64,000 nt of DNA. It comes from Nitrosomonas sp. (GTDB taxonomy: Bacteria > Pseudomonadota > Gammaproteobacteria > Burkholderiales > Nitrosomonadaceae). Position numbers and translations under genes: made by a program. This document shows, piece after piece, positions 1-7,095 of the stretch. The stretch is from positions 1 to 64,000 of the forward strand of contig NZ_JAMWZS010000007.1 in the NCBI RefSeq assembly GCF_024282095.1. The letters run 5' to 3'. A model generated the notes under the pieces. That model saw nothing but the letters and a program-made list of their open reading frames with translations. It was not told where the DNA came from and did no database searches. The stretch's first letter is position 1. Each line of letters opens with the position of its first letter.

Positions 1-1
1 G

Positions 2-835
2 CATCGCCAAGGTATTCAACCTTATGGCTTCCGTGTCGTCGAACCTCATCACGACGGCACCCCACATTGGCACTTACTGTTATTCATGCCAGATAAACAC
101 CGTGAAGCTGTGCGCAGAGTTATGCGCCATTACGCACTTCTTGATAGTGGTGATGAACCAGGTGCGCAAGAACACCGGTTTAAGGCAGTTGCCATTGATC
201 CGGAAAAAGGCACGGCTGCGGGTTACATTGCCAAGTACATCGCCAAAAATATCGACGGCTATGCATTGGATCAAGACTTGTACGGCAATGACTCTGTAAA
301 AGCGGCGGAGCGTATCTCGGCTTGGGCTAATACCTGGGGCATTCGTCAGTTTCAACAAATTGGCGGCCCAAGTGTGACCGTCTGGCGGCAATTAAGAAAA
401 CTGGACAAAACCGACGACCCGGAACTTGAAGCTATCCGCCAATCAGCAACCGCCAGTGATTGGGCGGCGTTCATGTTGGCAATGGGCGAGCCTGAAACCC
501 CGCACCGTTCGCAAGCCATCAAACCTTATTACGAACACAGCCAGCAACTCAATCCAGTAGTTGGTGAAGCGATTTCAATCGTCACTGGACGTTATGGAGA
601 TACTGTTCCATTACGGGTTGCCGGTATCGTCTGGAAAGGAATGAATTTAAGTACCCGCAAGCATGTTTGGATGCTTTTCAAAGTCAACAGCGAGGATGTG
701 ACATTAAGGAGCGAGGCGCAAGCCGAGCGCACGCAATGTCACGCCGGAGCTGTTTCTCTTGGACTTGTATCAATAACTGTACCAACCCCTTTTTATCATC
801 CGGAGGTTATCCATGAGAACCCACCTCAACACTAA
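2..835 (+). CDS. HUH-type replication endonuclease (phage GpA-like), 5' truncated by window
   Basis: Rolling-circle replication initiator: it nicks its origin and becomes covalently joined to DNA through tyrosine. The reading frame is open from base 2, upstream of the first ATG at 86, so the gene starts before the window. It shows the metal-binding HUH motif as PHWHLLLF (about bases 65-88). About 50 codons later is the catalytic tyrosine motif YIAKYIAKNIDGY, with two Tyr separated by three residues. This arrangement fits the bacteriophage replication gene A family. It probably drives replication or transfer of the excised integrative element encoded by the genes downstream. The C-terminal part (from about base 560) has no motif I recognise. 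The next gene starts inside its last codons. Confidence 0.85.
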   Translation, partial: HRQGIQPYGFRVVEPHHDGTPHWHLLLFMPDKHREAVRRVMRHYALLDSGDEPGAQEHRFKAVAIDPEKGTAAGYIAKYIAKNIDGYALDQDLYGNDSVKAAERISAWANTWGIRQFQQIGGPSVTVWRQLRKLDKTDDPELEAIRQSATASDWAAFMLAMGEPETPHRSQAIKPYYEHSQQLNPVVGEAISIVTGRYGDTVPLRVAGIVWKGMNLSTRKHVWMLFKVNSEDVTLRSEAQAERTQCHAGAVSLGLVSITVPTPFYHPEVIHENPPQH

Positions 836-1085
836 AAATGATCCATTAAAAGGCGTTATGAATCCATTTACTTTAGATGAAGCCGTGTCCTTGATCTACC
901 GTTTGGCCGTCCTCAAAAAGGATGCGCTGCAACCCGGAAAGAAATACAGCATCACGCAAATCGGCCATATCTGTGGCGTACTGACAATTAATGATCAGAT
1001 CGAGATCGTCATCAAGTTTCACGGCGAGATGCGGCAATTCACTAAGGAGGAGTTTTATGCGCAGGCGAAGCTTCTCGACGAGTAG
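813..1085 (+). CDS. Small mobile-element protein of unknown function
   Basis: A 90-residue soluble protein, no family recognised. The ATG at 813 is preceded by a strong GGAGGT ribosome site about 6 bases upstream and overlaps the end of the replication gene, which suggests translational coupling; an internal ATG at 858 lacks such a site. The sequence is mixed alpha/beta-like, with a charged C-terminal half ending in AKLLDE. Its place between the replication endonuclease and the xis/int genes suggests an accessory role in element replication or maintenance, but nothing in the sequence proves that. Confidence 0.65.
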   Translation: MRTHLNTKNDPLKGVMNPFTLDEAVSLIYRLAVLKKDALQPGKKYSITQIGHICGVLTINDQIEIVIKFHGEMRQFTKEEFYAQAKLLDE

Positions 1086-1162
1086 GACAAGCATCTTATT
1101 GACTGCCATGACAAGTAGTGTATTATCAGGACATATATTAACTAGCAGGAACACTACTGATC

Positions 1163-1582
1163 ATGGAAACCAATCAGAGAAAACTGTTTGATCTAAATTT
1201 AAGTGAAGAACAAGAGCAAATTCTTTTAAAGAATATCAAAGAATTTAGAGGCGTTGGCACTACGCTCGAAAGCGCATTAGGTGCTTTGATCATGGGGCAA
1301 TACTTCGGCTGGCGCGTTCTTAAAATACTTCATAATCCGCTGACCTATCGCCGATACGAAAATATCCTGGGTATTAAGTTTCAGGATGTTTGCCCGGAGG
1401 CAACGCACTATAGCGAAACAAAGAGTGTGGGTTATGCCATCACGCAAAAACTTGGCAGTTTCTGGGCGGTTGTGATGGGTAAACGCAAAGTAGTGGATAA
1501 GGGTTTGATCGAGGATCAAGCGGAAGTTGAAAAGCATGTAGCCAAGCATATTGCCGGTAATGACGGGGAGGAAAAGAAATGA
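1163..1582 (+). CDS. Mobile-element protein of unknown function
   Basis: A 139-residue protein with an acidic, glutamate-rich N-terminus, a central glycine-containing hydrophobic stretch (GALIMGQYFGW, residues about 40-50) and a charged C-terminal tail rich in Lys, Glu and His. No family recognised. Its stop overlaps the start of the next gene as ATGA, so it belongs to the same transcription unit as the excisionase-like and integrase genes. A role with these genes is plausible but unproven. Confidence 0.6.
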   Translation: METNQRKLFDLNLSEEQEQILLKNIKEFRGVGTTLESALGALIMGQYFGWRVLKILHNPLTYRRYENILGIKFQDVCPEATHYSETKSVGYAITQKLGSFWAVVMGKRKVVDKGLIEDQAEVEKHVAKHIAGNDGEEKK

Positions 1583-1773
1583 ATCACTCCGATCGACAAC
1601 TGGTGACTGTCAAGAAATGTGCGGAACTGACGGGCTTATCTGAAAACGCCATTCGGCAGTATTTGAAAAAGGGGCAATGGAGATTTGGAATACATTGGTT
1701 CAAGTCCGCGAATAAAAAAGTTTTTATAAGCATGTCCGCAGCTAATCTATGGATGCAAGGCAAAGAGGCATAA
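1579..1773 (+). CDS. xis: Excisionase-like small DNA-binding protein
   Basis: A 64-residue protein with a winged-helix/MerR-like helix-turn-helix pattern: VTVKKCAELTGLSENAIRQYLK, then a W-containing wing and a final ISMSAANLWMQGK helix. This is the layout of small Xis proteins that bend DNA at att sites and steer the integrase towards excision. GGAGG lies about 10 bases before its ATG. It overlaps the upstream gene by 4 bases and the integrase gene by 25 bases, as recombination directionality factors often do. The function is inferred from fold pattern and position. Confidence 0.75.
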   Translation: MNHSDRQLVTVKKCAELTGLSENAIRQYLKKGQWRFGIHWFKSANKKVFISMSAANLWMQGKEA

Positions 1774-2834
1774 CGGTTCGTGGCAATAGCATCCAGCTAT
1801 CGTTCACTTTCCAGGGTGTGCGCTGCCGGGAAACTATCCCCATGCCGCCGACCAAAACCGCACTGAAAGAACTAGGCCTTAAGCTGCAAGCCATCAAACA
1901 CGAAATCAGAATCGGCACCTTCGATTATTTCCGGCATTTTCCGTACAGCAAGAAAGCCAAGGAATTCAGGAAAACCCGCCCCGATCTCTACACGATCAAG
2001 GAAGCGCTTGTTAACTGGCTGCGCCGCAACCAAGCCAAGCTGCAAATTAGTACGCTGCAAGACTATAACAGCGCCATCTATCATCATTTGATTCCAACCT
2101 TTGGCGATCTCACCATTGCCGAACTGACCGCCAGCAAAGTTAAGGAATGGTTATCGGAGCTTCCTTGCTCAAACAAACGCAAAGGCAACATCCTGACCCC
2201 GCTGCGTCAAACGTTCGAGGAGCTGTATCACGACGAAATCATCGACAAAAACCCACTGCAAAGGGTTAAGAATCTTCCCAACAAAACTCGTGAACCTGAG
2301 CCGTTCACACAAGATGAAATCGCCAGAATTCTGAACGAACTTACCGGCCAGGCAAAAAACCTGATTCAGTTTGCATTTTATTCAGGTCTTAGAACTTCCG
2401 AATTGATCGCGCTTCGCTGGAAGGATGTCGACTTTGAAAACAACCGAGTATTTGTCAGCAGCGCTTATGTTCGTGGACAAATGAAAGAAACCAAAACCAA
2501 ATCGGGGAAACGAGAAGTCACGCTGCAACCGCAAGCCAAAGAAGCCCTGCTCAATCAGCAAACCTTTACCGGAAAACAGAATGTAACCGTTTTCCACGAT
2601 CAGGACACCAATCAGCCGTGGGCAAACGATCAACCTATCCGCAAAAAAATCTGGATTCCGACATTGGAAATAGCAAATATCAAATACCGCAGCCCCTACC
2701 AAACCCGCCACACCTTCGCATCAATGATGCTATCCAGAGGCGAACACTATATGTGGGTTGCCCAGCAAATGGGACATAAGGATTGGGGAATGATCATCAA
2801 GGTTTATGGACGGTGGATTCCGCAATCGAAATAG
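1749..2834 (+). CDS. int: Tyrosine recombinase (integrase)
   Basis: A 361-residue site-specific recombinase that integrates and excises the element. Residues 8-60 form an arm-type DNA-binding domain, residues 83-170 the SAM-like core-binding domain, and 185-360 the catalytic domain. Catalytic residues visible are Arg215 (SGLRTSELIALRW), a Lys near 248-251, Arg320 in YQTRHTFA (Tyr replaces the first His of the usual HxxR), His343 (QMGHKD) and the nucleophile Tyr353 (VYGRW). Length and order are complete. The ATG at 1749 lies inside xis and has no clear ribosome site, so translation is probably coupled. Confidence 0.93.
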   Translation: MDARQRGITVRGNSIQLSFTFQGVRCRETIPMPPTKTALKELGLKLQAIKHEIRIGTFDYFRHFPYSKKAKEFRKTRPDLYTIKEALVNWLRRNQAKLQISTLQDYNSAIYHHLIPTFGDLTIAELTASKVKEWLSELPCSNKRKGNILTPLRQTFEELYHDEIIDKNPLQRVKNLPNKTREPEPFTQDEIARILNELTGQAKNLIQFAFYSGLRTSELIALRWKDVDFENNRVFVSSAYVRGQMKETKTKSGKREVTLQPQAKEALLNQQTFTGKQNVTVFHDQDTNQPWANDQPIRKKIWIPTLEIANIKYRSPYQTRHTFASMMLSRGEHYMWVAQQMGHKDWGMIIKVYGRWIPQSK

Positions 2835-2841
2835 TTGTCAA

Positions 2842-2858
2842 AGTCCCATTATGGGACT
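2842..2858. promoter_or_regulatory. Palindromic operator of the HigBA-like pair
   Basis: A perfect inverted repeat of AGTCCCA and TGGGACT separated by 3 bases lies between the integrase stop and the toxin ATG at 2872. Type II toxin-antitoxin operons are usually autorepressed through such a site by the antitoxin or the complex. The position fits this; the regulation is inferred. Confidence 0.6.
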
Positions 2859-2871
2859 ATTATTCTGTTCC

Positions 2872-3174
2872 ATGAGAATTATTGCTCTGTCGACCTTGAA
2901 AGCATTTTGGGAAAATGATCCGTCTTACAATGATGCAATTCAACCAACACTTGCTTGGTACAGACACGCACTAAAAGCGAACTGGACAACGCCTGCGGAA
3001 GTAAAAGCGGATTTCAAAAGTACCAGTATTCTCAAAGACGGCAGAGTCGTATTCAATATTGCCGGTAATAAATACCGGCTAGTGGTATGGATTAACTACG
3101 CTTACAGCATTGTTTATATCCGTTTCATAGGCACCCATGCCCTATATGACCAGATCGATGCGCAAACGATTTAG
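2872..3174 (+). CDS. higB: HigB-type mRNA interferase toxin
   Basis: A 100-residue RelE/HigB-superfamily toxin expected to cleave mRNA on the ribosome. It begins MRIIALSTLKAFWE and has the family's mid-region DFKSTSILKDGRVVFNIAGNKYRLV and the C-terminal IRFIGTHALYDQIDA, where the His/Tyr region near the active site is found. The ATG at 2872 was chosen because the family signature starts there and the palindrome lies just upstream; an upstream in-frame ATG at 2806 would begin inside the integrase gene. The antitoxin gene follows 16 bases after its stop, in the toxin-first order typical of higBA. Confidence 0.88.
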   Translation: MRIIALSTLKAFWENDPSYNDAIQPTLAWYRHALKANWTTPAEVKADFKSTSILKDGRVVFNIAGNKYRLVVWINYAYSIVYIRFIGTHALYDQIDAQTI

Positions 3175-3190
3175 TACCAGGAACAACATA

Positions 3191-3565
3191 ATGGACATCA
3201 AACCAATCAAAACTGACACCGATTACCGCGCAGCATTAAAGGAAGTTGAAACACTAATGATGACTAAATCCAACACGCTGGAAGGTGAAAAACTGGATGT
3301 TCTGGTGACGTTGATTGAAGCTTACGAGCATAAACACTTTCCTCTCGACTTACCCGATCCTGTTGAAGCCATTAAATTTGAAATGGAACAGAAAGGCCTA
3401 ACCGTAAAAGACCTGGAGCCGATGATTGGAAAAAGTAACCGAGTGTATGAGGTTTTAAACCGCAAACGCTCCCTGACACTTAAAATGATTTGGAAACTAC
3501 ATCAAGAGCTAGGTATTCCTGCAGAGTCTCTGATAAAACAACCCATACAAACGCATATCAATTAA
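3191..3565 (+). CDS. higA: HigA-type antitoxin, HTH domain
   Basis: A 124-residue antitoxin that should bind and neutralise the upstream HigB and repress the operon. The N-terminal half (IKTDTDYRAALKEVETLM...EGEKLDVLVTLIEAYE) is the toxin-binding part of the YgjM/HigA2 type. The C-terminal half (residues about 60-118) is an XRE-like helix-turn-helix: FEMEQKGLTVKDLEPMIG...VYEVLNRKRSLTLKMIWKLHQELGIPAESLI. The start at 3191 gives the usual MDIKPIKTD beginning. The pair probably stabilises the integrated element. Confidence 0.88.
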   Translation: MDIKPIKTDTDYRAALKEVETLMMTKSNTLEGEKLDVLVTLIEAYEHKHFPLDLPDPVEAIKFEMEQKGLTVKDLEPMIGKSNRVYEVLNRKRSLTLKMIWKLHQELGIPAESLIKQPIQTHIN

Positions 3566-3679
3566 GAAGCTACCCATAAATTCTGCATGAACTGAGAAAA
3601 CAATATTATAGTCACTCCGCAACTTTAATCGAAGAATTTTTAGCGTTACATTTATATCGACAGCCAATTAAGGAATGTT

Positions 3680-4384
3680 ATGAATATCAAGGAATACCTC
3701 ACCAAGCTAGAAAAGGAAACTCACGAGATATTCATAAAATCGCTAAAGTGTCAAAGTAAACTTGGTAAAGTCCATCACTTATCCTCATGTATATATGAGT
3801 TCACAGATCACATTTATGATCAATCAGAAAAAAACATTCTAATCACTGTCAGCTCTCAATTAGAATCTGCGACGCTAAATGCAACAATGGGAATGTACAG
3901 ACAGGCATTTTCCTCACTTCGTCTAGCTTTTGAAATGGGATTAGGTGCAGCTCATTTTTCTGTTCATAAACTCGATCTCATAGAATGGCTTAATGGTCGT
4001 GCTGACATAAAATGGTCTGAATTGATTAATGAAGATAATGGAGTTCTATCATCACGATTTACAAATGCTTTTTTCAAAGAGTTATCTTCAGAAGCAGCAG
4101 AATATAGGGGAAAGGCTATTTCAACATATCGGAATCTTTCTGAATTTGTCCATGGTAATAATGAAACATGGGAAAAAAGTGGTCTACAACTTAGTTACAA
4201 TAAAAAACTTTTAGAAACATATTTCGAAACATTTTCAGATACTGTGGAAATAATACTTTTTGTTCTTACTTGTAGATATGCTAAGTCCCTATCTAAGGAA
4301 TCTTTAGAATCTCTTCAATGCATCCCTGAGGAATTTGTACACATATTACATATTCGAGAAATATTTGGCGGACCTAAGGTGTAA
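3680..4384 (+). CDS. Helical protein with HEPN-like Rx6H signature, partner of ATPase
   Basis: A 234-residue, almost wholly alpha-helical protein; I do not recognise a named family with certainty. Two conserved-looking patches stand out: MYRQAFSSLRLAFEMGLG (residues 72-89) and YRNLSEFVHGN (150-160). The second holds R151 and H158 spaced as Rx6H, within the Rx4-6H catalytic pattern of HEPN ribonucleases; the pairing of an R..E helix with Y..LS..H resembles DUF5677-type HEPN-like proteins. The gene is visibly more AT-rich than the integrase and the host genes. A ribosome site (AAGGAATGTT) precedes the ATG. Its stop lies 2 bases before the ATPase start, so the two are co-translated. The RNase role is inference. 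Confidence 0.75.
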   Translation: MNIKEYLTKLEKETHEIFIKSLKCQSKLGKVHHLSSCIYEFTDHIYDQSEKNILITVSSQLESATLNATMGMYRQAFSSLRLAFEMGLGAAHFSVHKLDLIEWLNGRADIKWSELINEDNGVLSSRFTNAFFKELSSEAAEYRGKAISTYRNLSEFVHGNNETWEKSGLQLSYNKKLLETYFETFSDTVEIILFVLTCRYAKSLSKESLESLQCIPEEFVHILHIREIFGGPKV

Positions 4385-4386
4385 TA

Positions 4387-6000
4387 ATGAGCGAATTCTA
4401 CCTGCGCACTGAAAGTATCAAACAAACTGAAATTTTAAATTTATCTGTAGTAAATTCATCAGACATAAACATAATTAAAGCACTAAAATCGCCAGAACCC
4501 TGTTTGTTAGAAGGTTCACGGGGTACTGGCAAATCATTCTTAATGAAAGTTTCTGAATTAGAAATTGAATCAGAAAGTGAATCTTCAGTAGCTGTTTTTG
4601 TATCTTTCAACAAAAGCTCATTAATAAATACAAACGATCATCTTCAGTTTTATCATTGGATGTTAGCTAAGACACTAAAATCGTTAGTAAATAAACTACG
4701 CAAAAAAGGAATTGTAGTTTCAAGTACAACAGCTAATCTTCTTAGTAATGATGTAAATAATAATGAATTTGAGATTGAAAAAGACCTAAAAAATATCGTT
4801 AAGATCTTTGAAGAATCTTACAAGGGCAATATTTCTTTAGATATTTCATCATTGCCTGATATTGAAGATGTTAAGGAAGCTATAGAGAGTATTTGTGAAG
4901 AAAACTCCTTGGATAGAATTTATTTTTTCTTTGATGAGGCCGCTCATGTATTTAGACCTGAACAGCAAAGACAATTCTTTAATCTATTCAAAGACCTTCG
5001 ATCTCCATACATTACATGTAATGCAGCCATTTATCCTGGAGTTACCTATTTTGGCGATTCGTTTGAACTAACCCACGACTGCATATACAAAAAACTGGAG
5101 CGAAATATTAAAGACTCAGATTATCTTCAATATTTCAAGGACATTGTTTGCAAACAGGCAGATAAAAAACAAATAGATGAGATTGATAGGCAAAGAGAGC
5201 TTTTTAATACACTAGCTTTCGCCTCAGGTGGAAATCCCAGAATGTTGCTTAAAACAATTCAAGATCTAGATAAATTCAGTGTTTCAGACGTAAATAAGCT
5301 GATAAAGTCATTCTATAGGGAACAAGTATGGGCCGAGCATACTGAGCTAGGTGAAAAATATAAGGGCCATAAAAACATAATCGACTGGGGAAGAGATTTC
5401 TTAGAAAACTCAGTCATTCCAGCTATCGAAAATTATAATAATTCTCGTAAAGTAAAGGGAGTTGATGAAGCAACCATATATTTCTGGATACACAAAGATG
5501 CACCTCAAGTTGTTAAAGAAGCACTGAGGCTTCTTACTTATACAGGCATTATTAGAGAAATTGATAAATCTGTAAGAGCAACGAGGGCCGAGCTAGGTAC
5601 ACGCTATGAGGTTAAATACGGTTGCATAATTTCTTTAGAGAGCAATCCTCATGGCGAATCTAAAGACTTTTTTAAATCTTTGTCACTCAAAAAGTTCCCG
5701 GAGTTTGGGAAAAATCATAGTGCTTACACGAAAGCAGCAGAAATAATTGTAATTGATTACAATGATATACAGTATGAGAAATCATTGAAAAACATGTTAG
5801 AGAAATCAATAGACGTGCTAAGCCTCTTAACCCCATGGCAAAAAAGCAAATTAAAAAGTGCCGGCATTAATACTATAGAACAATTACATTCGAATACTGA
5901 AGAAAGCTTAATTGAGAATATATATAATGTTGGGCCAGCTCGTGCTCGGTTAATGAAAAATGCTGCAACCGCTGAGCTACTAGAATATCTTTCTGGGTAA
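4387..6000 (+). CDS. ORC/CDC6-like AAA ATPase with C-terminal helix-hairpin-helix
   Basis: A 537-residue ATPase. Walker A is GSRGTGKS (residues 43-50), Walker B is IYFFFDEA (178-185), and GGNPRML (281-287) resembles the sensor-2 region of STAND/ORC1-type ATPases. Residues 330-440 look like a winged-helix region (ATIYFWIHKDAPQVVKEALRLL). Residues 478-530 form a helix-hairpin-helix pair (LKSAGINTIEQL...IYNVGPARARLM), a nonspecific DNA-binding fold. It is AT-rich like its upstream partner. Such ATPases next to HEPN-like effectors are typical of defence modules, where the ATPase acts as sensor or switch. No nuclease or protease domain of its own is visible. Function is inferred from architecture and position beside an att site. 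Confidence 0.82.
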   Translation: MSEFYLRTESIKQTEILNLSVVNSSDINIIKALKSPEPCLLEGSRGTGKSFLMKVSELEIESESESSVAVFVSFNKSSLINTNDHLQFYHWMLAKTLKSLVNKLRKKGIVVSSTTANLLSNDVNNNEFEIEKDLKNIVKIFEESYKGNISLDISSLPDIEDVKEAIESICEENSLDRIYFFFDEAAHVFRPEQQRQFFNLFKDLRSPYITCNAAIYPGVTYFGDSFELTHDCIYKKLERNIKDSDYLQYFKDIVCKQADKKQIDEIDRQRELFNTLAFASGGNPRMLLKTIQDLDKFSVSDVNKLIKSFYREQVWAEHTELGEKYKGHKNIIDWGRDFLENSVIPAIENYNNSRKVKGVDEATIYFWIHKDAPQVVKEALRLLTYTGIIREIDKSVRATRAELGTRYEVKYGCIISLESNPHGESKDFFKSLSLKKFPEFGKNHSAYTKAAEIIVIDYNDIQYEKSLKNMLEKSIDVLSLLTPWQKSKLKSAGINTIEQLHSNTEESLIENIYNVGPARARLMKNAATAELLEYLSG

Positions 6001-6094
6001 TCATGAAACCCTTAAAATCCTTAGAAATACTCCAGAATGACACAAAAATAGCAGAGGTAAGCAATAAATGACTGATATACCAGAAATAGACCAA

Positions 6095-6115
6095 GGTTCG
6101 ATTCCCGTCGCCTCC
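6095..6115 (+). other. Probable att site: 3' end of tmRNA (ssrA) or tRNA
   Basis: GGTTCGATTCC followed by CGT and CGCCTCC matches a T-psi-C loop plus the 3' acceptor strand of an RNA whose 5' acceptor would read GGAGGCG. The left side of the T stem (ACCAA) does not pair, so only the 3' part is present, as expected when an element has inserted into the gene. The ending CGCCTCC resembles betaproteobacterial tmRNA more than common tRNAs, from memory of those sequences. A tRNA target cannot be excluded. Confidence 0.6.
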
Positions 6116-6126
6116 CAGTAACATCC

Positions 6127-6149
6127 AACACCGTCCAAAAGACGGTGTT
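6127..6149 (+). terminator. Intrinsic terminator after the att RNA fragment
   Basis: A 9-bp perfect stem AACACCGTC/GACGGTGTT with loop CAAAA, followed by TTCATTTG. It lies 12 bases after the RNA 3'-end fragment and was probably the native terminator of the target tmRNA/tRNA gene. Confidence 0.75.
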
Positions 6150-6236
6150 TTCATTTGTATTATCACATATTAATTATCCGTTAAAATTTTTTATGATCCG
6201 ATAAAATCCGCGCATAATCGGAGTATCGGTGGAAGG

Positions 6237-6534
6237 TTGACAGATAAGGCTTGCAAGGCATTCGTGGCTCAAAAAGCGTATGGCAAAGAAGCTTTCAGAC
6301 GGCGGAGGGCTGTACCTCTTTATTACACCTGCTGGCGGAGCGCTTTGGCGCATTAAATACCGCATTGATGGTAAGGAAAAAACTTACTCGATTGACAGTT
6401 ACCCTGCCGTTTCCTTGGCGGCGGCACGTGTTGATCTGGCAGAAGTTAGCTCTTATGGTCATCTTCGACTGATGCAGGAGTGCATAAACGCTCTGCCAGC
6501 TAAAGCACATTCGTCATTTTGTGACGATTGGTAA
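6237..6534 (+). pseudogene. Remnant of a P4-type integrase (N-terminal part, frameshifted)
   Basis: The frame from 6237 reads LTDKACKAFVAQKAYGK, then the match continues one frame over, from 6280, as KKLSDGGGLYLFITPAGGALWR followed by YRIDGKEKTYSIDSYPAVSLAAARV. Together these are the DUF4102 N-terminal domain of P4-family integrases, broken by a one-base frameshift near 6285. After about 6440 the resemblance ends and the frame stops at 6534, so the core and catalytic domains are gone. The normal ATG is also missing. It lies just after the att fragment and terminator, where a P4-type integrase sits, so it marks an earlier island at the same target site. Confidence 0.75.
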
Positions 6535-6539
6535 GAAGA

Positions 6540-7095
6540 GCCATTAGTTGCGCAGCCGGTCAGGCCCCAAATAATCAATGATACGATCACAAAAATTTTC
6601 ACAAGTTTTTTTCATCACATTAAGATTGAAGCTCTATATGCATTTCAGAAAATAATCAGTCACTGTCTCACGAGATGGCACACTTTAAGAGTGTATTTGG
6701 GTGTACATGATTGTAATAACTTCAACCAGAGTGACATGTAAGCATCCTAGCTTAGTCAATACAATAATGTATATTGGGGAAACCTTTGTTTTTTAATCAG
6801 TAAAACCATTAGCTGCAACTGCTCTTGATTCATCACAGTTTTTAACTATCTTGATGGCTTTTAATAACAAATTGACAAAATCGATCCTAGTTCACAGCAG
6901 CACCAGCGCTTTTTTCAACCCGACCTCCCACTATAAGAAATAGAAAGACAGTTCACTTGGCAGTGCGGCAATAAACTGGATTCTTCATAGATCTTTCCTG
7001 TCGAATTTCTTTTGCTTAAGCCAGCTATGCTGTAATGAGCGTTGCGGCTATATGCAAAAGTATTCGCCAAGAAATTGCCATTAGCTATACGGGGT
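6540..7095. other. Non-coding stretch
   Basis: About 550 bases with stops in all frames and no gene I can support. It lies between the integrase remnant and the RidA gene and looks like decayed island DNA. I see no RNA gene or clear repeat in it. Confidence 0.5.

Follow-up and report, generated by a model that had tools for sequence, protein, structure and literature searches.

The window, a stretch of 64,000 nucleotides from the start of a Nitrosomonas sp. contig, carries two genes that lie head to tail on the forward strand. P1 (3680-4384, ATG start, 234 aa) encodes a protein that is all-helical and HEPN-like according to its predicted fold, and P2 (4387-6000, ATG start, 537 aa) encodes an ORC/CDC6-like ATPase with Walker A and B motifs, a GGNPR motif and a possible C-terminal helix-hairpin-helix (HhH). 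The gap between them is 2 bp, and the GC content of the pair is 0.34 vs 0.454 for the window. Both values agree with the original prediction, made from the sequence before this analysis, of two AT-rich genes 2 bp apart.

Several genes lie upstream of the pair. The contig start truncates a P2-like gpA replication protein gene (2-835, forward strand; phrog_91 E = 2.5e-94, PF05840 positions 232-321 only), and a search of the assembly did not recover the remaining half. It is followed by a Cox-like excisionase (1579-1773), the tyrosine integrase of an integrative element (1749-2834, forward strand; PF00589 E = 5.6e-20, phrog_1 E = 9e-59), and the toxin-antitoxin genes HigB (frame 2806-3174; an in-frame ATG lies near 2872) and HigA (3191-3565), also on the forward strand (PF09907 E = 1.5e-29). 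HigB and HigA (2806-3565) also score as PADLOC PD-Lambda-2_A and PD-Lambda-2_B (E = 7.5e-35 and 6.2e-44), the latter match being confined to positions 1-123 of the 402 in the profile. The pair had been placed in a cargo slot between these genes and an att site. The integrase and HigBA are indeed upstream; the att site finds no such confirmation. Its likely counterpart is a candidate 23-mer at 6093-6115 (forward strand) that resembles a tRNA 3′ end by sequence likeness. Allowing up to one mismatch, the assembly as a whole has a single copy of it, and exact matches to its 21-base core occur in 0 of 30 other congeneric genomes. Furthermore, no direct repeats of at least 13 bases link 5950-6700 with 1-3700, and an Rfam search of 1-7000 returned 0 matches. 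Since the contig starts at window base 1, the far end of the element is out of view. A stable hairpin with a run of T after it, resembling an intrinsic terminator, lies just past the supposed att at about 6128-6151. The short ORF at 6280-6534 matches phrog_3423 (E = 6.8e-19) and appears by eye to be an N-terminal piece of a second integrase, so more than one element may have used the site.

For a survey of the pair, one-genome-per-species contigs, plasmids, IMG/VR and whole genomes were searched, and P1 and P2 relatives were called by hmmsearch over the ORFs of each locus. Seventeen additional distinct loci carrying a P1 relative were found. The ATPase gene is directly downstream in 16 of them, intact in 13 (L003, L004, L005, L006, L012, L013, L014, L018, L019, L029, L033, L040 and L041) and cut or broken in three. 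The L002 ATPase is reduced to a 75-codon frame that closes 61 bases ahead of the contig end, that of L034 is interrupted by the contig end, and that of L042 is a short frame with an IS5-like transposase (by eye) on its 3′ side. The stop of the L019 ATPase is the last codon of its contig. With the window included, 17 of 18 P1-like genes have an adjacent ATPase; P1 homologs are thus not mostly partnerless, as befits the proposal of a conserved gene pair. The unpaired exception (L011/L037) is a weak P1 relative. At L037 (6541-8570) this P1-like protein, which has neither the arginine nor an ORC-like ATPase, is encoded two genes past a ParA-like gene (by eye).

Among the 14 intact pairs the intergenic gap ranges from -4 to +24 bp, and the pairwise distances of P1 and P2 correlate closely (Mantel r = 0.982, a value reached in 0 of 5000 permutations). 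The P1-P2 pair is a conserved unit, patchily spread over distant bacteria, and the sources include Desulfocicer, Marinagarivorans, Sulfuricurvum, Desulfobacula and Planktothrix. It is also rare. The first P1 profile matches 3 of 299 genomes of the phylum (the genome of the window, G223 and the unpaired G043), and the ATPase profile matches 5 of 249 genomes; within the family, 3 of 100 are positive. The window's own genome is among the matches each time. In another order 1 of 196 genomes is positive, this being the centre genome G223 itself. No match was found in E. coli genomes for the L014 pair (distant mode) or the L041 pair (near mode), nor in phage records, and of three further scans of viral contigs two found no relative and one gave only L019 again. 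Repeat identifiers were counted once (L001/L009/L020, L017, L016, L015, L039, L010/L021, L026, L027, L037 and L050), and others were merged: L023 and L025 into L031, of which they are pieces, L024 into L032, and L022 into L030. L035/L028, a C-terminal ATPase piece at a contig end and perhaps the rest of L034, was excluded from the 23 ATPase loci considered below.

The Rx6H motif that the original prediction read in P1 is present, with R151 and H158 situated in the segment RNLSEFVH. As evidence on its own this motif was rejected, given that Rx4-6H is common by chance and occurs in 34 of 58 window ORFs and in 61% of shuffled P1 sequences. Judged from the aligned relatives, the above-chance feature of the motif is its conservation, not its presence. 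Across 18 distinct P1-like sequences, which are 17-59% identical to P1, H158 is kept in all and R151 in 16, the exceptions being Gly in the ATPase-paired L019 and Ser in the unpaired L011. The residue that follows the arginine is Asn only in the window copy; it is Gln, Lys or Glu elsewhere, and Ile in L040-L042. Residues R81, E85, Y150, L153, S154 and G159 are found in all 17 ATPase-paired P1 proteins.

An AlphaFold2 model of P1, based on an alignment of 13 sequences, has a pLDDT of 89.3 and a pTM of 0.88. It features helices at 3-42, 48-69 and 73-95, short elements to residue 131, and helices at 133-158 and 175-203. H158 terminates the 133-158 helix, and R81 and E85 are within the 73-95 helix. 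HEPN RNases, as described in the available text of Anantharaman et al. 2013 (PMC3710099), are all-helical: the long helix at core position three ends in the Rx6H motif, core position two has a conserved acidic residue, and a variable insert lies between the two. Judged by its helix limits, the P1 model fits this description, so that its acidic residue, its variable insert and an Rx6H that closes a long helix may correspond to those of HEPN domains.

At the sequence level no such kinship emerges. Neither P1 nor the relatives scanned have a significant match in family libraries. The best sub-threshold match of P1 is HEPN_AbiA_CTD (E = 0.03, under the cut-off), and two relatives reach DUF5677 with non-significant E-values of 0.05 and 0.09 over a region spanning the motif. 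With hhalign, the P1 profile gives probabilities of 0.3% for HEPN_RiboL-PSP and 3% for DUF5677, hence no profile link. PADLOC has no match for P1, PHROGs none for P1 or P2, and sequence and profile searches of solved structures yield no credible P1 match. P1 further departs from HEPN RNases in the residue after the arginine, which is mostly not Asn, Asp or His, and in the arginine-less L019 protein. The earlier description of P1 as HEPN-like is supported by predicted fold and motif position, with no significant sequence match to a HEPN family.

For P2, the three ATPase motifs recognized previously are all in place: Walker A GSRGTGKS (43-50), Walker B FFFDEA (180-185) and GGNPR (281-285). Residues G43, R45, G46, G48, K49, D183, E184 and R285 occur in 14 of 14 paired P2 sequences, leaving Walker A and B intact throughout. 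The ORC-CDC6-like family PF24389 scores 26.6 bits on the window P2 vs a cut-off of 27, that is, 0.4 bits under, and exceeds the cut-off for the relatives L019 (43.7 bits), L007 (33.2 bits) and L008 (44.8 bits). P2 is read as an ORC/CDC6-like ATPase. It resembles PF24389/ORC-CDC6 and STAND AAA+ ATPases in Walker A/B and GNPR, and differs from them in its dedicated small helical partner gene and its HhH-like C-terminal tail. The C-terminal HhH of the original prediction survives as a weak resemblance of residues 469-529 to HhH domains. Both family matches of the tail are under the cut-off (PF14520, E = 0.17; RNAP alpha-CTD PF03118, E = 0.0069), a profile search of the PDB finds RNAP alpha-CTD (E = 0.009) and RAD51 (E = 0.02), and the HhH glycine G516 is missing in 4 of 14 paired sequences. 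In distant members of the ATPase family a zinc ribbon precedes the C-terminal tail.

A PADLOC scan covering P1, P2, HigB and HigA of the window matches P2 weakly to mad8 (E = 2.2e-5, residues 29-197 only). The mad8 ATPase belongs to MADS, an eight-gene locus. Searches of open-access full text, from which supplements, preprints and most subscription journals are absent, turned up no paper that names this pair in its title or abstract. The pairing had not been recognized as a named system, and the PADLOC and literature searches concur.

More distant relatives of the ATPase have other partners. At L007, L008, L030 and L051 the ATPase gene is followed by a different downstream protein with an RHxxVH motif, and in their alignment all four of these partners share E75..R79 and R162..H167. 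Compared with HEPN_RiboL-PSP members, the partners reach 85% in hhalign (P = 6e-6), with reference sets in which the central ORF was chosen by length and the motif-less RiboL-PSP rows L070 and L074, probably wrong frames, were kept. The only single-protein Pfam match to HEPN_RiboL-PSP is that of L008 (E = 0.0012, under the cut-off). On the strength of the profile and of an Rx4H motif combined with Ex3R, these four downstream partners are related to HEPN_RiboL-PSP (PF18735), to which P1 is not detectably related. A single profile for P1 and the RHxxVH partners was rejected (hhalign 0.3%), and the two were consequently handled as separate families. A methyltransferase is encoded directly upstream at L007 and L051 (annotated or similar) and at L030 (by eye). 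At L031 and L032 the partner is upstream and contains YSxLSKGxH, with no arginine; its hhalign score against P1 is 6.9% on two sequences, too low to establish a link. Altogether, a small HEPN or HEPN-like neighbor is found at 23 of 23 ATPase loci with a readable flank, 2 of which were assigned by a short motif, by eye. For the loci recruited by the ATPase query alone (L007, L008, L018, L019, L030-L034, L040-L042, L051 and the fragment L035), 13 of 14 adjoin a HEPN or HEPN-like gene, the 14th being the contig-end fragment.

Prophage, integrase or plasmid genes are present at 9 of the 17 paired loci. Besides the window, with its integrase and P2-like gpA, these are L002 (partial integrase), L003 (tail gene about 7 kb upstream), L006 (plasmid), L012 (flanked by P2-like gpA and portal), L013 (a DNA primase interpreted as P4-type), L040 (genes resembling O and Q), L041 (matches to partition genes and weak ones to terminase) and L042 (prophage-like ORFs, by eye). 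The L012 pair occupies exactly the gpA-portal position described as a defence hotspot of P2-like phage in the available text of PMC9122126. We note that the mobile share is biased by the source of the loci, eight of which come from viral contigs (L012, L013, L014, L018, L019 and L040-L042) and one, L006, from the plasmid set. Among the eight paired loci from sources other than viral contigs, with the window excluded and L006 included, five have mobile or defence neighbors (L002, L003, L006, L029 and L033). L004, L005 and L034 are set among ordinary genes, by eye, and the surroundings of L019 show nothing clear. The mobile or defence setting claimed for the pair is frequent, with L004, L005 and L034 as exceptions.

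Several pairs adjoin DNA-modification genes. The L006 pair lies between SspB-SspC-SspD and a PbeA-like helicase, all on one strand. The L029 pair is within 3 kb of SspH and a Fic-type protein, on the strand opposite to the Ssp genes, with other Ssp-like ORFs seen by eye. A C5 methyltransferase and DUF4928 precede the L014 pair, a similar gene pair precedes L012 (by eye), and at L018 a DNA methyltransferase gene lies about 3 kb upstream of the pair, which also has a TIR protein nearby. After SspBCD and the pair, L006 7679-12695 encodes the PbeA-like helicase together with an ATPase that is partly MzaB-like and a DUF2779 protein resembling Cas4, a restriction side that is unusual for an Ssp locus. 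L014 7862-9592, downstream of the pair, encodes a 576-aa cytidine/dCMP deaminase-domain protein, possibly a defence gene. Upstream of the L003 pair (2389-6850), an nSTAND-like ATPase, DUF4145 and AIPR form a row, possibly a defence cluster, and directly upstream of the L033 pair (5396-6925) is an ORF in which a long N-terminal part precedes a Cas1 domain at the C-terminus (PF01867 E = 6e-38).

Components of this kind have been linked before. HEPN domains as auxiliary effectors, HEPN-DUF499 fusions and ORC/CDC6 neighborhoods with other partners all appear in the available text of PMC12839542 and PMC10853773. In the DUF499-centred BREX-related systems, as presented there, a HEPN domain is fused to an ORC/STAND ATPase, and a methyltransferase and a helicase are core parts (PMC12839542). 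The pair resembles these systems in coupling a HEPN-type protein to an ATPase of the ORC/CDC6 clade, and differs in consisting of two genes, usually with neither methyltransferase nor helicase next door. The Orc/CDC6 conflict neighborhoods (HerA/FtsK, REase, TIR, ASCH) likewise have an ORC/CDC6 hub with exchangeable effectors; in contrast, the pair comes without HerA or a recognized nuclease domain, and the available text on these neighborhoods describes no separate HEPN partner (PMC10853773). P4-like satellites carry HEPN-containing systems according to the accessible part of PMC9122126, which does not name their partner, and an experimentally studied relative of the pair may be among them.

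We regard the pair as real and conserved, and probably as a defensive module. More specifically, we favor a mobile two-gene anti-invader module, with the ATPase as sensor and switch and a HEPN-like RNase effector acting by abortive infection, at a probability of about 0.5. This reading draws on the adjacency of the genes, their parallel divergence, the intact ATPase motifs, the predicted fold and motif position of P1, the defence and prophage context, and the HEPN-type partners of distant ATPases. The P2 ATPase would sense invader DNA and serve as the switch, and P1, encoded just ahead of it and probably in direct contact with it, would be the effector that it releases. Upon activation, P1 would cut RNA via H158 and R151, and the cleavage would arrest growth ahead of phage release. 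Sensing, release and RNA cleavage are modeled on the behavior of HEPN and ORC/STAND proteins elsewhere. Counting against this scheme, P1 has no significant family match, R151 is lost in L019 and L011, Asn follows the arginine only in the window, and the putative HhH is weak.

An alternative is a P1 that is HEPN-like in fold and non-catalytic, acting as sensor, adaptor or inhibitor for an ATPase or host factor that does the work. The two arginine-less proteins, the non-canonical residue after the arginine, the absence of significant HMM matches to any catalytic HEPN family and the YSxLSKGxH partners of two distant ATPases, which have no arginine, all point this way. We nevertheless hold it to be unlikely; H158 and R151 persist in 18 and 16 of 18 sequences that are as little as 17% and at most 59% identical to P1. 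Moreover, HEPN proteins of the Parep1/8 type are reported to be without the arginine and yet keep the histidine (PMC3710099, available text).

A further possibility, which we rank below the non-catalytic one, attaches the pair to DNA-modification systems as an accessory or backup arm. The ATPase would read phosphorothioate or methyl state and, on meeting unmodified DNA or after failure of the main restriction arm, would fire its HEPN-type partner. In the stretches read, DNA-modification or linked genes lie near 9 of 23 ATPase loci: Ssp genes at L006 and L029, a C5 methyltransferase with DUF4928 at L014 and, by eye, L012, and methyltransferases at L018, L040 (a methyltransferase-like ORF about 1 kb downstream, by eye), L007, L051 and L030. 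However, no modification gene was seen near the other 14, the window among them, in flanks that are sometimes short and ORFs that were partly scanned. The L029 pair and Ssp genes are on opposite strands, and defence genes cluster in any case. Least probable of all is that the pair serves the mobile element itself, in its stability or regulation (like a toxin-antitoxin module or in replication control), rather than acting against phages. Carriage by prophages, by a plasmid and by a contig that has partition genes and terminase-like ones would fit it, as would the HigBA pair adjoining P1-P2 in the window. It sits poorly with the patchy presence on several unrelated element types, with neighbors that are defence genes and with the three chromosomal copies (L004, L005 and L034) that have no visible element; a 537-aa ATPase would also be unusual as an antitoxin.

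Beyond the anti-invader module itself, we offer tentatively, and with low confidence, a broader idea that we still place above these alternatives. One bacterial ORC/CDC6-like lineage might serve as a general sensor of invader DNA with exchangeable HEPN-type effectors (the P1, RiboL-PSP and YSxLSKGxH types), repeatedly attached to Ssp, 5mC and adenine methyltransferase systems, for which it would read modification state and target RNA.

If the favored reading is true, a compact mobile defence module would be added to those of prophage hotspots. It would feature an ATPase of the ORC clade, related to proteins of replication origins and to STAND immune receptors, that works with separate, swappable RNase effectors. 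The recurrent proximity to Ssp and methyltransferase genes would then raise a testable question, namely whether RNA cleavage can be gated by the modification state of the DNA.
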